From Thermoleophilia bacterium (GTDB lineage Bacteria > Actinomycetota > Thermoleophilia > Gaiellales > Gaiellaceae): a stretch of DNA of 43,478 nucleotides. Within the stretch, counting starts at the first letter, position 1. Each line of letters starts with the position of its first letter. The translations under genes and the position numbers were made by a program. This document shows positions 5,402 to 34,207 of this stretch, piece after piece. Location of the stretch: NCBI GenBank assembly GCA_025925195.1, contig JAICLU010000003.1:1-43478 (forward strand), written 5' to 3'. The notes below the pieces were generated by a model. The model was not told where the DNA came from. It saw nothing but the letters and a program-made list of their open reading frames with translations, and searched no databases.

Positions 5402-6253
5402 GTGAGAGTGACGCTGTGCGACGTTGGGCCGCGCGATGGGCTCCAGAACGAGCCGGAGACGCTGGCGCCGGCCGTTCGGGCGGATCTGGTCAATCGACTC
5501 GCGGCAGCCGGGCTGCCGCGAGTCGAGGCCGTCAGCTTCGTCCGCGACGACCGCGTGCCACGGATGGCCGGGGCCGAGGAGGTCGTCGCCGCGATCGAGC
5601 GGCGCGCAGACACGGAGTACGCGGGGCTCGTCCTGAACGAGCGGGGCTGGGAGCGCTTCGTCGCGAGCGGCCTCGACCGGATGACGGTGACGTTCGCCGC
5701 GACGGATGCGTTCAACCGCGCCAACGGCAACATGACCCTTGCGGACGCGGTCGAGCAGGCCGACGCGATCGTCGCCGCTTGCGACGATTCGTCACGAGCG
5801 ACGGTGACGATCTCCGTCTGCTTCGGCTGCCCGTTCGAGGGCGCCGTCGACCCGGGCGTCGTCGCCGACCTCGCCGCGCGCTTCGCGGGCCGAGCGGAGG
5901 TCGTCCTCGCCGACACGATCGGAGTTGCGACGCCGCGCTCCGTCCGGTCGCTCGTCGAGCGGACCGGCGCCGACGGCTTTCACGGCCACAACACCCGTAA
6001 CACCGGCTACGCCAATTGCCTTGCCGCCCTCGACGCGGGCGCGACGGTGCTCGACGCGTCGGTCGGCGGCCTCGGCGGCTGCCCCTACGCGCCGCGCGCG
6101 ACCGGCAACGTCGCGACCGAGGACCTCGTCTACCTCCTCGAGGGCGAGGGCGTCGAGACCGGCGTCGACCTCGACGCGCTCGTCGCCGTCTCACGCTGGC
6201 TCGAAGGGCTGCTCGGCCGCCCGCTCGAGGGCTACGTGTACCGGACGGCATGA
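5402..6253 (+). CDS. Hydroxymethylglutaryl-CoA lyase-like enzyme (DRE-TIM family)
   Basis: HMG-CoA lyase cleaves HMG-CoA to acetyl-CoA and acetoacetate at the end of leucine breakdown. The 283-aa product has the DRE-TIM N terminus DVGPRDGLQNE, the metal-binding HGHNTRNTGYAN, and the signature SVGGLGGCPYAPRATGN with the catalytic cysteine in GGCP. The stretch SFVRDDRVPRMAG departs from the usual SFVSPKxVPQMAD, so a related acyl-CoA lyase specificity is possible. The GTG start (5402) follows the BMP stop closely. The TGA stop overlaps the ATG of the NhaA-DsbA gene. The liv transporter genes elsewhere in the window fit a branched-chain amino acid theme. Confidence 0.85.
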   Translation: MRVTLCDVGPRDGLQNEPETLAPAVRADLVNRLAAAGLPRVEAVSFVRDDRVPRMAGAEEVVAAIERRADTEYAGLVLNERGWERFVASGLDRMTVTFAATDAFNRANGNMTLADAVEQADAIVAACDDSSRATVTISVCFGCPFEGAVDPGVVADLAARFAGRAEVVLADTIGVATPRSVRSLVERTGADGFHGHNTRNTGYANCLAALDAGATVLDASVGGLGGCPYAPRATGNVATEDLVYLLEGEGVETGVDLDALVAVSRWLEGLLGRPLEGYVYRTA

Positions 6254-8163
6254 GCGAGACCGAGTCCGGGCGAACAGCGTGGTCACGGAACCTCGGCGCG
6301 CCGCTGCGGGCCTTTTTGCGCGCCGAGACCGCGAGCGCCGCGTGCCTCGTTGCGGCCGCCGTCGGAGCGCTCGTCTGGGCGACCGCCGACGCCGGCTCGT
6401 ACGAGCGCGTCTGGACGACCGTGCTCTCGATCCGGCTCGGCGGGCACGGCCTCGCGCTCACGCTCCGCGACTGGGTGAACGGCGGCCTGATGAGCTTCTT
6501 CTTCTTCGTCGTCGGCCTCGAGGCGCGGCGGGAGATCGACGTCGGAGAGCTTCGCGAGCGCCGGCGGCTGGTGCTGCCCGTCGCCGCCGGCGGGCTCGGG
6601 ATGCTCGCGCCGATCGGGATCTTTCTCGCGGTCAACGGCGGTCACCCGACCGCCCACGCCTGGGGGACGGCGATGTCGACCGATACGGCGATCGCCCTCG
6701 GAGTGCTCGCCGTCCTCGGACGCCGGGTGCCCGACCGGCTGCGCGCCTTCGTCGTCACGATCCTCGTCGTCGACGATCTCGTCGCATTGCTCGTGATCGT
6801 CTTCGCGTACAGCAACCACGTCGCCGCGCGTCCCCTCGCGCTTGCGGGCGGTCTGTTCGCCGCAGCTCTCGTGCTCGTCCGGCTCGGCGTGCGCGGCGGC
6901 CTCGTCTACCTCGTGCTCGGCACCGTGATCTGGGTCTGCCTGCACGAGGGCGGCGTCGAGCCCGTCGTCGTCGGCATCGCGTTCGGCCTGTTGACGTACG
7001 CCGGGCCGTCCGGCTGGGGCGACCTCGAGCGCGCGACCGACCTCTTTCGGTTGTTCCGCGAGCAGCCGACGCCGGAGCTGGCGCGCGCCGCGCGTAGCGG
7101 CGTCGCGTCGGCGGTGTCGCCGAACGACCGGCTGCAGGAGCTCTTCCTGCCGTGGACGAGCTACGCGATCGTGCCGCTCTTCGCGCTCGCCAACGCCGGC
7201 GTGCCGCTCGGCGCCTCCTCGCTCGACCGCGCCGTGCACTCGCGGGTCGCAATCGGCATCGTCGTCGCGTACGTCGTCGGCAAGCCGCTCGGCATCGGCC
7301 TCGCGACCGCCCTCGTCGCGCGGATCGCGCCGCGGCTCCGGCCGCCGATCGGCTGGTTGAGCGTGGCCGCGGGCGGCGCCGCTGCGGCTGCGGCGTTCAC
7401 GGTCTCGCTCCTCGTCGCCTCCCTCGCGCTGCACGGCCGCGACCTGCAGTCGGCCACGCTCGGGATCCTCGCGGCCGCCGCGCTCGCGCCGCTCTCGGCG
7501 TGGGCCGTCGTCCGTGGCGCGACGCTGTTGCCGGCCGACCTGCGCCTGCGCGCCGTGCTCGGCCAAGCGGAGTCGATCGTCGACCTCGCCGTTCCGGTCG
7601 ACCTCGCACGGGACCACGTCCGCGGTGCCGAGGACGCTGCCGTCACGCTGCTGGAATACGGGGACTTCGAATGCCCGTACTGCGGCCGTGCCGAGGACGC
7701 GATCGAATCGGTGCTCGGAACCGGGGACGTCCGCTATGTCTGGCGCCACTTGCCGTTGACGGACGTCCATCCGCGCGCGCAACTGGCCGCCGAGGCGTCG
7801 GAGGCGGCGGCTGCTCAGGGGCGGTTCTGGGAGATGCACGACGTGCTGCTCGACCATCAGGACGAGCTCGCACCGCCCGATCTCGTCCGCCATGCCCGCG
7901 AGCTCGGCCTCGACGTCGACCGGTTCGTCGACGATCTGCGCCGGCACGCAGGCGGCAAGCGGATCGCCGACGACGTCGAGAGCGCCGAGCAGAGCGGCGT
8001 GGCGGGGACGCCGACGTTCTTCGTCAACGGGAGGCGCCACTGGGGTGCCTACGACGTCGCCGGCCTCACCCGCTCGGTTCGGGAGGCCCGTGCCCGAGCG
8101 CGGGTGGCGGCGACCGGTGACGGAGTCGCTCTCCGTCGACCGTCAGCGGCGGCGCCACGGTGA
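6250..8163 (+). CDS. NhaA Na+/H+ antiporter fused to a C-terminal DsbA-like thioredoxin domain
   Basis: The 637-aa product has two domains. Residues ~15-420 match the NhaA sodium/proton antiporter, with NGGLMSFFFFVVGLEARREI, the AMSTDTAIALGVLA segment and ILVVDDLVALLVI, whose paired Asp residues bind the cation. Residues ~455-620 form a DsbA-like thioredoxin domain with DFECPYCGRAEDAI (CxxC at 475-478) and the cis-Pro loop VAGTPTFFVNG. NhaA-thioredoxin fusions are known among bacteria. The domain could couple antiport to redox state or act as a membrane-anchored thiol oxidase. ATG 6250 overlaps the upstream stop by 4 nt. The last 98 nt overlap the convergent CoA-transferase gene; they encode a low-complexity tail beyond the folded domain. 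Confidence 0.93.
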   Translation: MSETESGRTAWSRNLGAPLRAFLRAETASAACLVAAAVGALVWATADAGSYERVWTTVLSIRLGGHGLALTLRDWVNGGLMSFFFFVVGLEARREIDVGELRERRRLVLPVAAGGLGMLAPIGIFLAVNGGHPTAHAWGTAMSTDTAIALGVLAVLGRRVPDRLRAFVVTILVVDDLVALLVIVFAYSNHVAARPLALAGGLFAAALVLVRLGVRGGLVYLVLGTVIWVCLHEGGVEPVVVGIAFGLLTYAGPSGWGDLERATDLFRLFREQPTPELARAARSGVASAVSPNDRLQELFLPWTSYAIVPLFALANAGVPLGASSLDRAVHSRVAIGIVVAYVVGKPLGIGLATALVARIAPRLRPPIGWLSVAAGGAAAAAAFTVSLLVASLALHGRDLQSATLGILAAAALAPLSAWAVVRGATLLPADLRLRAVLGQAESIVDLAVPVDLARDHVRGAEDAAVTLLEYGDFECPYCGRAEDAIESVLGTGDVRYVWRHLPLTDVHPRAQLAAEASEAAAAQGRFWEMHDVLLDHQDELAPPDLVRHARELGLDVDRFVDDLRRHAGGKRIADDVESAEQSGVAGTPTFFVNGRRHWGAYDVAGLTRSVREARARARVAATGDGVALRRPSAAAPR

Positions 8164-30936: not shown

Positions 30937-31493
30937 TGGCGATCGGATCGTGGCTGCGCGGCGACGTGCCGGTGAGCCGCTTCGCTCCCGCGCGCGAGCG
31001 CTGCACGGTCACGTCGGACGTCGTCGAAGCGCTGCCGCGTGGCCCCGCGCGGAGCGCTGCCTGGGCGTCGTACGCACTCGTCACCTACGGCGACAAGCTC
31101 CTCGCGGCGGGCAAGGACGACGGCTACGTGGACGGCGACACCGCACGTGTCGCGGCGTCCGCGTACGAGCTCGCTGCGCGCTGTCTCGAGGCGGACGCGC
31201 CCATCCCCGGCGGTCTCCCGCCATGGTCGGCCGGCACGCGCTCGGTGCACCAGCTCCGCGGCATGCGCGATGCGCTCGACGCGCTGCGCACGTTTCTCGC
31301 CGTCGATCTCGGGCCCGCGCCGCTCGCCGCGGCGGACGCGCACCGGGCGAAGGCCGGCAGCCTGTGGATCGCGCGGCCGACTGCGGAGCTCCGCGGCGGC
31401 ATCGCCGGCGCACTCGTGGCCGGGCTCGACGCCGTGTATGCGCTCGGCGTCGCTAGCTCGGCGCGAGAGCCGCGTCGCGCGCCGCGAGCGTGA
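30936..31493 (+). CDS. Hypothetical protein (185 aa)
   Basis: Not recognised. The protein is mostly helical and alanine-rich, with LPRGPARSAAWASYALVTYGDKLLAAG and AADAHRAKAGSLWIARPTAELRGGIAGALVAGLDAVYALGV. No signal peptide or strong membrane segment is seen. ATG 30936 overlaps the upstream stop by one base. The last 41 nt overlap the convergent EamA transporter gene. Confidence 0.7.
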   Translation: MAIGSWLRGDVPVSRFAPARERCTVTSDVVEALPRGPARSAAWASYALVTYGDKLLAAGKDDGYVDGDTARVAASAYELAARCLEADAPIPGGLPPWSAGTRSVHQLRGMRDALDALRTFLAVDLGPAPLAAADAHRAKAGSLWIARPTAELRGGIAGALVAGLDAVYALGVASSAREPRRAPRA

Positions 31494-32382
31494 CGATCTT
31501 CCGGCGCCGCTGAATAGGCAGGATCGTGACGGTGACGATGATCACTGCGATGCCGAGCCACTGCGACCAGCGCAGGTGGCTGTTGTACGCGTAGATGCCG
31601 GCGATCACGGCGATCGCGGGATACGTCAGCTCGGCGATCGACGACAGCATCGCCGGCGTCCGCTGCAGGCCGAAGTAGTAGAGCGAGAGCGCGATCAGCC
31701 CCGTGACGACGGCGAGGTAGAGGATCAACAGGCTGTCGTGGCCGTTCGACCACGCGCTCGCGCCCATGACCGGCAGGGCGATCGCGCTGCCGACGAGGCC
31801 GAAGAGGAAGCGGAGCGCGAGCACGTGCTGGAACTCGAGGTCGCGGCTGAGATAGCGCCCGAGGACGGTGCCGAGCGCCCACAGCACGGCGGCGGCGGTC
31901 GCCTCGATGATCGGCACGAGCCCCTTGGCCGTCGGCTCGAGCGGGTGCGGCTGGTTGACGAGCCAGAACCCGATCAGCGCGGGCAGCAGGAACCAGGCGA
32001 AGCGCGGCCGCGCCCGTTCGCCGAGGATCAGCGCCGCCGCGCCGACGGCGACGAGCGGCTGGACCTTCTGGATGACGACCGGCGTCACGAAGTCGCCGTG
32101 GAAGAGCGCCTCGGTGAACAGGATCGTGGCGACCGCGGATGCGCCCGCGCCGATCGCGATCGCGCAGAGGATCGCACGCCAGCCTGCGCGCCAAACCGCG
32201 CGCAGCGCGGGGAGCAGCAGCGGCAGCGTCAACGCGACGAGGACGACGTGCTCGCCGAATACGATCGTCGTCGCCGACGTCGAGGCGCCCATCGTCTTGC
32301 GGATGATCGGATCGGTGCCCCACATGGCCGCCGCGATCGCGATCAGGACCACTCCGGGGATGGCGATGACGCGCGCCTTCAT
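31453..32382 (-). CDS. EamA/DMT-family transporter
   Basis: This 309-aa drug/metabolite transporter superfamily protein has about ten hydrophobic segments in two EamA repeats, with the first-repeat pattern IPGVVLIAIAAAMWGTDPIIRKTMG. The second repeat begins at IIEATAAAVLWALGTVLGRYLS and ends in the PAIAVIAGIYAYNSHLRWSQWLGIAVIIV block. It is likely an exporter or importer of a small metabolite or amino acid. ATG 32382 overlaps the stop of the DsbA-like selenoprotein gene, so it belongs to the lysA-dsbA-eamA operon. A lysine or diaminopimelate-related cargo is possible but unproven. Confidence 0.9.
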   Translation of the reverse strand: MKARVIAIPGVVLIAIAAAMWGTDPIIRKTMGASTSATTIVFGEHVVLVALTLPLLLPALRAVWRAGWRAILCAIAIGAGASAVATILFTEALFHGDFVTPVVIQKVQPLVAVGAAALILGERARPRFAWFLLPALIGFWLVNQPHPLEPTAKGLVPIIEATAAAVLWALGTVLGRYLSRDLEFQHVLALRFLFGLVGSAIALPVMGASAWSNGHDSLLILYLAVVTGLIALSLYYFGLQRTPAMLSSIAELTYPAIAVIAGIYAYNSHLRWSQWLGIAVIIVTVTILPIQRRRKIVTLAARDAALAPS

Positions 32383-32975
32383 TGCTCCAGCGTATCGAAA
32401 ACCTGTTCGAACACTTCGAGGGGTTGTGCGCCGAGCACGAGCAGCTTGCCGTCGAGGACGAAGGCCGGAATCGCGTTGATGCCGTGACCGTGCGCCTGCT
32501 GCGTCGACGCCTGCACGCGGGCTCCGTAGCGGTCGTCGGAGAGCGCGGGCTCGATGTCGTCGAGGCCCGCCTCGGCTGCGAGTGCGCGCAGCTCGTCGGC
32601 GTCGCCGATGTTGCGACCCTCGGCCCAGTACGCGTCCATCAGCCGGTCGTGGACGGCCTCGTGGACGTCGCGGTCGCGCGCGAGCTCGGTCACGCGCAGC
32701 GCGAGCTGCGTGTTCGGGACGACGTTCTCGGGCGGCGCGTACACGAGCCCGTTCGCCGCGAAGCTCGCCCTGAGCCGGTCGTGCATGGCCTCGCCGTAGC
32801 GCGCGTGGAGCTGCGCGCGCGGGATCCCCTCCGGCGGATACTCGGGGTGCAGGTCGAAGGGCAGGAAGGTGATCTCGGCGCCGTACCGGCTCCGCAGCGT
32901 CTCGGCCGTCTTCTGGCCGAGCCGGCAGAACGGTCAGATGTAGTCCGACCAGATCAGGATCGAGTGATCGCTCAT
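32379..32975 (-). CDS. DsbA/FrnE-like thiol oxidoreductase with in-frame TGA: probable selenocysteine protein
   Basis: Read through one TGA (32934-32936), the frame gives a 198-aa DsbA-family protein of the FrnE type. It runs MSDHSILIWSDYI-U-PFCRLGQKTAETL, so TGA occupies the first Cys of the active-site CPxC (UPFC). Past the TGA the match is full: FLPFDLHPEYPPEGIP, VVPNTQLALRVTELARD, YWAEGRNIGDADELRALAAEAGLD, and the cis-Pro loop INAIPAFVLDGK. There is no frameshift. The start ATG overlaps the lysA stop (ATGA), so initiation upstream of the TGA is well supported. Standard calling would start at ATG 32786 and lose the active site. Alternatives are a TGC-to-TGA error or a recent pseudogene. 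The SECIS-like hairpin makes selenocysteine the better reading. Confidence 0.85.
32901..32921 (-). promoter_or_regulatory. Candidate bacterial SECIS hairpin for the UGA at 32934-32936
   Basis: On the minus strand CTCGGCC (32921-32915) pairs perfectly with GGCCGAG (32907-32901) over the loop AGAAGAC. The loop begins 19 nt after the UGA, and its first two bases include a G. These meet the published bacterial SECIS criteria: a short stem, a small apical loop, G in the first two loop positions, and 16-37 nt from UGA. The hairpin lies inside the coding sequence, as it does in bacteria, where SelB binds it. Confidence 0.65.
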
Positions 32976-34207
32976 CCCTCCTCGTAACGCAGCAGGTCGT
33001 CCACGGCTTCCCGGCTGCGGATCAACCGCGCCGCGCCGTCGCGCACGAGGACGACTGCGGGTCGCGGGACGCCGTTGTACGTCGAGCCCATGGCGAGCGT
33101 GTACGCGCCGGTCGCCGGCACGGCGAGCAGGTCGCCGCGGCGCGGGTGCGGCAGCTCGGCGGCCTGGATCAGGACGTCGCCCGACTCGCAGTGCTTGCCG
33201 GCGACGCGGAAGATCCCGTCCGGCAGCTCGGCGGCCCGGTTCGCGAGCAGCGCCTCGTAGCGCGCGCCGTACAGCTGCGGCCGCGGATTGTCCGACATGC
33301 CGCCGTCGATCGCGACGTACGTCACGCCGCCGCTGTCCTTCACGACGCCGACGCGGTAGAGCGTGACGCCGGCGCGGCCGACGAGCGAGCGGCCCGGCTC
33401 GAGGATCACCTGCACGTCGCCGGGCAGCGCCGCGACGAGCGGCTCCACGAACGCGTCGATCTCGGGCACGTGCTCGTCGCGCGTGTAGCGGATGCCCAGC
33501 CCGCCGCCGATGTCCAGCGTCCGCGGCCGCCACCCGAGCTCGTCCTCGGCGCGCTCGCAGAAGGCGAGCAGGCGCTGGACGGCGAGCACGCTCTCGTCGA
33601 CGCGCGCGAGCTGCGAGCCGACGTGGAAGTGGACGCCCGCGACGTCGAGGCCGCGCTCGCGGGCGTCCGCGATGACGGCGAGCGCCCGCTCGGGCGGCAG
33701 GCCGAACTTCGACTCGTCGTGCGCGGTGCGGATCGACTGGTGGGTGTGGGCGTCAACGCCCGGCGTCAGCCGCACTAGCACCTGCCGCACGCCCTGCGCG
33801 GCTGCGCGCTCGGGCTCGTCGGCCGCGTCGAGGACGACGGTCGCGCCGGTCTCGGCCGCCGCCCGGAGCTCCTCGTCCGACTTGTTGTTGCCGTGGAAGA
33901 GGATGCGCTGACCGGCGATGCCTGCCGCCTGCGCGAACGCGAGCTCGCCGAGCGTCGAGACGTCGGCGCCGACGCCTTCCTCGGCGAGGACGCGCAGGAC
34001 GGCGACGTTCGCGAAGGCCTTCGTCCCGTAGACGACGAGCGCGCCGGGCGCCGCCTTCGCGTACGCCCGCGCCTGCGCGCGGATCGTCTCCTCGCAGTAG
34101 ACGAGCAGCGGCGTGCCGTGCTCTGCGGCGAGCGCCTCGGCGTCGATGCCGCCGACCGACAGGCGGCCGCCGTCGATCCGCGCGCTGAGAGGAAGGATCT
34201 CCTGCAC
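32972..34207 (-). CDS. lysA: Diaminopimelate decarboxylase
   Basis: LysA is a PLP enzyme converting meso-diaminopimelate to lysine (411 aa). It has the PLP-Lys motif VVYGTKAFANVAVLR, HFHVGSQ, the glycine-rich DIGGGLGIRY, EPGRSLVGRAG, and the C-terminal CESGDVL followed by ATGAYTLAMGSTYNG. GTG 34207 lies 6 nt after GATACT on the minus strand, a leaderless-type promoter. Its TGA overlaps the ATG of the DsbA-like gene by 4 nt. It diverges from the leuS leader peptide with 21 nt between starts. Confidence 0.96.
   Translation of the reverse strand: MQEILPLSARIDGGRLSVGGIDAEALAAEHGTPLLVYCEETIRAQARAYAKAAPGALVVYGTKAFANVAVLRVLAEEGVGADVSTLGELAFAQAAGIAGQRILFHGNNKSDEELRAAAETGATVVLDAADEPERAAAQGVRQVLVRLTPGVDAHTHQSIRTAHDESKFGLPPERALAVIADARERGLDVAGVHFHVGSQLARVDESVLAVQRLLAFCERAEDELGWRPRTLDIGGGLGIRYTRDEHVPEIDAFVEPLVAALPGDVQVILEPGRSLVGRAGVTLYRVGVVKDSGGVTYVAIDGGMSDNPRPQLYGARYEALLANRAAELPDGIFRVAGKHCESGDVLIQAAELPHPRRGDLLAVPATGAYTLAMGSTYNGVPRPAVVLVRDGAARLIRSREAVDDLLRYEEG

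Follow-up and report, generated by a model that had tools for sequence, protein, structure and literature searches.

A predicted selenocysteine-containing FrnE/DsbA-family thiol-disulfide oxidoreductase in a Thermoleophilia genome and its relatives

We analysed a window of 43,478 nucleotides (contig JAICLU010000003.1 of assembly GCA_025925195.1, Thermoleophilia bacterium) and conclude, on comparative sequence evidence, that an in-frame TGA at the active site of a thiol-disulfide oxidoreductase is very probably decoded as selenocysteine (Sec), with a rough probability of 0.97. The gene, hereafter Sec-FrnE, lies on the minus strand at 32379..32975 (ATG at 32975-32973, stop TGA at 32381-32379) and was placed in the FrnE/DsbA family by matches to Pfam DSBA and to FrnE and SCO1869. 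Its frame has 199 codons including the stop, with a sole internal TGA at codon 14 (32936-32934); translated, 32975..32379 of this strand reads MSDHSILIWSDYI-U-PFCRLGQ... up to the final TGA, giving a predicted protein of 198 aa with Sec14 and Cys17. The internal TGA (32934..32936, minus strand) replaces the first active-site cysteine in WSDYI-U-PFC and encodes the U of the redox motif UPFC, whose codons TGA CCG TTC TGC occupy 32925..32936 (minus strand). The Pfam DSBA (PF01323) match ran unbroken over it (residues 6-192, E 1.2e-35), in agreement with an earlier note on this DNA, which had described one DsbA-family frame with a single TGA at the codon for this cysteine. As that note also anticipated, gene calling with table 11 yielded only 32786..32379, a fragment of 135 aa that lacks the active site; standard gene calling truncates this redox enzyme of the class and hides its active site.

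The gene is flanked on the same (minus) strand by lysA (diaminopimelate decarboxylase; 32972..34207; TIGR01048, E 7e-125) upstream and by an EamA-family (DMT) transporter gene (31453..32382; Pfam EamA, E 6.7e-30) downstream. Four-base ATGA overlaps join its start to the lysA stop, an overlap noted previously and found as described, and its stop to the EamA gene; GAGGAGG precedes the ATG. The three genes are probably co-transcribed as one operon. The lysA gene was likewise upstream of the TGA-containing gene in several relatives (L040, L042/L023, L043/L024, L048, L049 and L059), and an EamA gene adjoined it in one relative only (G014, locus L040). One addition to the Sec reading would make inefficient decoding of the UGA a selenium-dependent switch: with selenium the complete enzyme would be produced; without it, a stop after 13 residues would lower EamA expression, or Cys would sometimes be inserted in place of Sec. 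The ATGA overlaps at both gene ends suggest translational coupling, and other selenoprotein systems are known to show both selenium-dependent polarity and misinsertion of Cys for Sec, which provides general precedents; however, because the EamA neighbour recurs in G014 only, the data give no support to a regulatory role conserved for the two genes, and we consider such a switch unlikely.

The codon state was examined among relatives. In a scan of public genomes, three MAGs with homologues of 65-70% identity all carried TGA at the identical codon (3/3), and Cys-type relatives were found in uncultured actinobacteria and in Corynebacterium. When 399 genomes of the same class were searched (cut-off E <= 1e-20), a homologue was obtained in 117, and any stop within the match was a single TGA. 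The codon could be read in 107 loci; it was TGA in 52 distinct loci of the class (51 genomes, the window included) and TGC or TGT in the others, never another stop, which answers as expected the proposal that close relatives be compared at this position. The second motif residue was Cys in every locus read. One genome (G044) had two TGA-type copies on separate contigs (L119, L120). One locus (L030, CAMCDF010000074.1; 8868 bases) is titled Bifidobacterium breve; the tree placed it with uncultured actinobacteria of the class, and the record is probably mislabelled.

These data bear on whether an ordinary FrnE gene of Cys type has instead acquired the TGA by nonsense mutation, as a pseudogene or through faulty assembly, a reading to which we give very little credence. 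TGA is one substitution from TGC or TGT, and the source genome is a fragmented MAG, as such a reading would want; against it, TGA stood at the identical codon in homologues down to 29% identity, with frames intact on both sides and no other stop, the protein downstream of the TGA was strongly conserved in the alignment of homologues, and the genome contains Sec machinery. Because the same codon was TGA in 52 loci from 51 assemblies, chance, sequencing error and a dead gene were excluded.

We then consider the source genome itself (2.62 Mb, 82% complete), for which a search for selA, selB, selC and selD had been advised; all of these were found. The selA gene (C6:33229-34449, 497 bits) and selB (C6:31622-33214, a 560-aa frame, 325 bits) are separated by about 15 nt on one contig, which also carries a tRNA-Sec with anticodon tca (UCA) at C6:25808-25898; selD was at C43:9472-10353 (326 bits). 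Only the 57-bit match to RF01852 in this genome represents tRNA-Sec; the next seven matches were rejected as candidates, being ordinary tRNA-Ser, tRNA-Arg or tRNA-Trp by ARAGORN. A formate dehydrogenase alpha gene (G000:C141:19507-22359, L141) contained one in-frame TGA, within NQARIUHSSTV, and represents a second selenoprotein. Bacterial Sec machinery serves this subunit more often than any other protein (PMC5029168, PMC1794560); the enzyme is unrelated to Sec-FrnE and shares with it the machinery for decoding UGA. With SelA, SelB, SelD, tRNA-Sec and the formate dehydrogenase UGA in one genome, it follows that the source cell can make and use Sec. That TGA has been reassigned genome-wide (to Trp, Gly or another residue), with no selenoprotein involved, would account for a TGA left open midway through a conserved frame, but is still more improbable than a mutation or error, since lysA and frnE both end in TGA, internal TGA was found (in a non-exhaustive screen) in two frames only, both at known or expected Sec positions, the codon column alternates with Cys and not with Trp or Gly, and a dedicated tRNA-Sec and SelABD are present. 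Pseudogene or error was thus rejected on the conserved TGA column, and reassignment on the use of TGA as the stop of neighbouring genes.

The Sec reading was further compared with the distribution of selA, a strong match being defined as E <= 1e-29. Such a match was present in 42/51 genomes with the TGA form versus 13/38 with the Cys form (Fisher p 6e-6, a descriptive value, as the genomes are related and some are incomplete); a tree-based test of independent pairs for TGA versus selA had too few pairs for significance. A convincing selA match was missing in 9 of the TGA genomes. Three of these 9 had a tRNA-Sec(UCA), and the 6 with neither selA nor tRNA-Sec were all incomplete MAGs (69-88%).

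A bSECIS-like hairpin lies at 32889..32931 (minus strand), immediately past the TGA. Its core stem (32921-32915 paired with 32907-32901) and apical loop (AGAAGAC, 32914-32908) read CUCGGCC-AGAAGAC-GGCCGAG, and a lower stem extends to 32931/32889. The extended hairpin had an MFE of -24.2 kcal/mol (z -2.8 versus dinucleotide shuffles) and the core alone -12.4. Published bSECIS criteria call for a loop of 3-9 nt, an upper stem of 4-16 bp, a G in the first two loop positions, a loop 16-37 nt after the UGA and an MFE <= -7.5 (PMC13188914); the hairpin of the window has a 7-nt loop with G second, a 7-bp stem, a loop start 19 nt past the UGA and an energy within the limit. Where the stem is expected, 90% of TGA loci had at least 6 contiguous pairs, versus 13% of Cys loci. 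Pairing in a fixed register did not separate the TGA and Cys groups, since the TGA homologues are split between two registers offset by one base. In the 29 loci sharing one register, the core six pairs were 99% formed, versus 93% for column shuffles (0/500 reached the observed value) and 11-52% in slid registers, and the top pair was variously C-G, G-C and A-U; the remaining 23 TGA loci use a register one base shorter and were 80% paired. The strict bSECIS model was passed by 38/52 TGA loci (14/52 failing) versus 12/46 Cys loci. A folding z-score computed with the protein preserved gave only a modest signal (mean -0.94 for TGA forms versus -0.15 for Cys forms), and the explicit test at the hairpin place was far clearer than this global score. 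The hairpin is likely under selection, as the pairing across homologues indicates, overlapping with constraint on the protein. The conserved TGA/Cys column, the machinery and this hairpin together support the selenoprotein that the earlier note had proposed.

Decoding would proceed as follows: SelA, using selenophosphate supplied by SelD, would make Sec-tRNA(UCA), SelB would carry it, and binding of SelB to the hairpin, whose loop starts 19 nt downstream of the UGA, would deliver Sec where termination would otherwise occur. The final TGA would terminate normally, presumably as no such hairpin serves it. In the enzyme, the selenolate of Sec14 may attack the disulfide of a substrate; the mixed selenenyl-sulfide may then be resolved by Cys17, which is the one remaining thiol of the protein, and a thiol system of the cell would recycle the enzyme.

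Judged by sequence and model, Sec-FrnE is an FrnE-type member of the DsbA family. The AlphaFold2 model was confidently of DsbA type (pLDDT 95.6), and PF01323 and the folds matched by the model both indicate a DsbA thioredoxin domain with an inserted helical domain. In the model UPFC occupies residues 14-17, with a helix starting at residue 15. Residues invariant over 27 homologues include W9, S10, D11, position 14, P15, C17 and P170; P170 lies in the proline loop INAIP and is presumably the cis-proline of the thioredoxin fold. The top PDB folds were SCO1869 of Streptomyces coelicolor (3gl5), the best match at 34% identity over the alignment, and FrnE of Deinococcus radiodurans (DR_0659; 5co3, 5cp1, 5cnw; TM about 0.84-0.87 by query length). 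SCO1869 is a Cys protein as far as known, whereas Sec-FrnE would have Sec for the first active-site Cys. The match to D. radiodurans FrnE covered residues 6-188 and aligned its CPWC with UPFC, residue 14 falling on the first Cys; at this motif the aligned FrnE proteins read CP(W/F)C. The active site of D. radiodurans FrnE contains Cys, and the protein carries a further CXXXXC in its C-terminal part, whereas Sec-FrnE ends earlier; in its 198 residues CXXXXC is absent and Cys17 is the sole Cys, leaving only Sec14 and Cys17. The CXXXXC of D. radiodurans FrnE was proposed to regenerate the active site, and is found in many but not all FrnE proteins, being missing in that of S. roseofulvus (PMC8945050). 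FrnE, by prediction a thiol oxidoreductase of the cytoplasm, is tied to oxidative-stress tolerance (PMC8945050), and cytoplasmic thiol-disulfide exchange with a selenolate nucleophile is the likely job of Sec-FrnE. The window contains a second DsbA domain, at 6244-8163 (plus strand), where the C-terminal part of an NhaA-type Na+/H+ antiporter is a fused DsbA/Thioredoxin_4 domain whose ECPYC site is of Cys type.

The reading of a Sec-containing DsbA protein stood; the novelty implied for it is reduced, such DsbA-like proteins of COG2761 having been catalogued since 2005 (PMC1088965, PMC5029168). A UxxC protein of this kind was described in the Sargasso Sea selenoproteome in 2005 (PMC1088965), Sec DsbA-like proteins were counted in 41 organisms in 2016 (PMC5029168), and a 2026 catalogue lists "DsbA-like protein form 1" (PF01323, UxxC; PMC13188914). 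By published description, these share with the present protein the Pfam family, Sec at the first position of UxxC, a bSECIS-type hairpin and widespread Cys homologues (PMC1088965, PMC13188914, PMC5029168); Sec-FrnE likewise has UxxC within PF01323/COG2761, the COG2761 assignment being made through Pfam and FrnE similarity. Since the family has been known for two decades (from 2005), the present gene is an added member and not the first. The early reports were from a marine metagenome and some Deltaproteobacteria and Clostridia, whereas Sec-FrnE is spread through one actinobacterial class, often behind lysA; a literature search for Sec in Thermoleophilia or Gaiella returned nothing relevant. 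What is added is the broad distribution of the Sec form across one actinobacterial class, largely uncultivated, together with nested replacements of Sec by Cys. The known range of Sec-DsbA/FrnE proteins is thereby broadened, and pairs of close relatives differing in Sec or Cys become available for tests of the advantage that selenium brings to catalysis, and of its loss.

A maximum-likelihood tree built from 98 proteins required 6 Sec/Cys changes (at least 5 on well-supported branches), versus 33 for shuffled labels. We lean toward regarding Sec-FrnE as an old selenoprotein of the class, inherited mainly by vertical descent, that several lineages have lost or exchanged for a Cys form. Within genus g36, five Cys-type homologues (L078, L083, L084, L085 and L086) formed a clade nested among Sec forms, and a selA match was found in 0/5 of their genomes, which are incomplete. 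The nested clade fits replacement of Sec by Cys with loss of the machinery. If this is true, g36, which belongs to the second family in the order, would with its Sec group and nested Cys clade without selA constitute a natural experiment on surviving the loss of the machinery. In the genus of the window (G000-G015), the Sec-FrnE gene was present in only 2/16 genomes and selA in 13/16, which makes it probable that other proteins, e.g., formate dehydrogenase, use the machinery in this genus.
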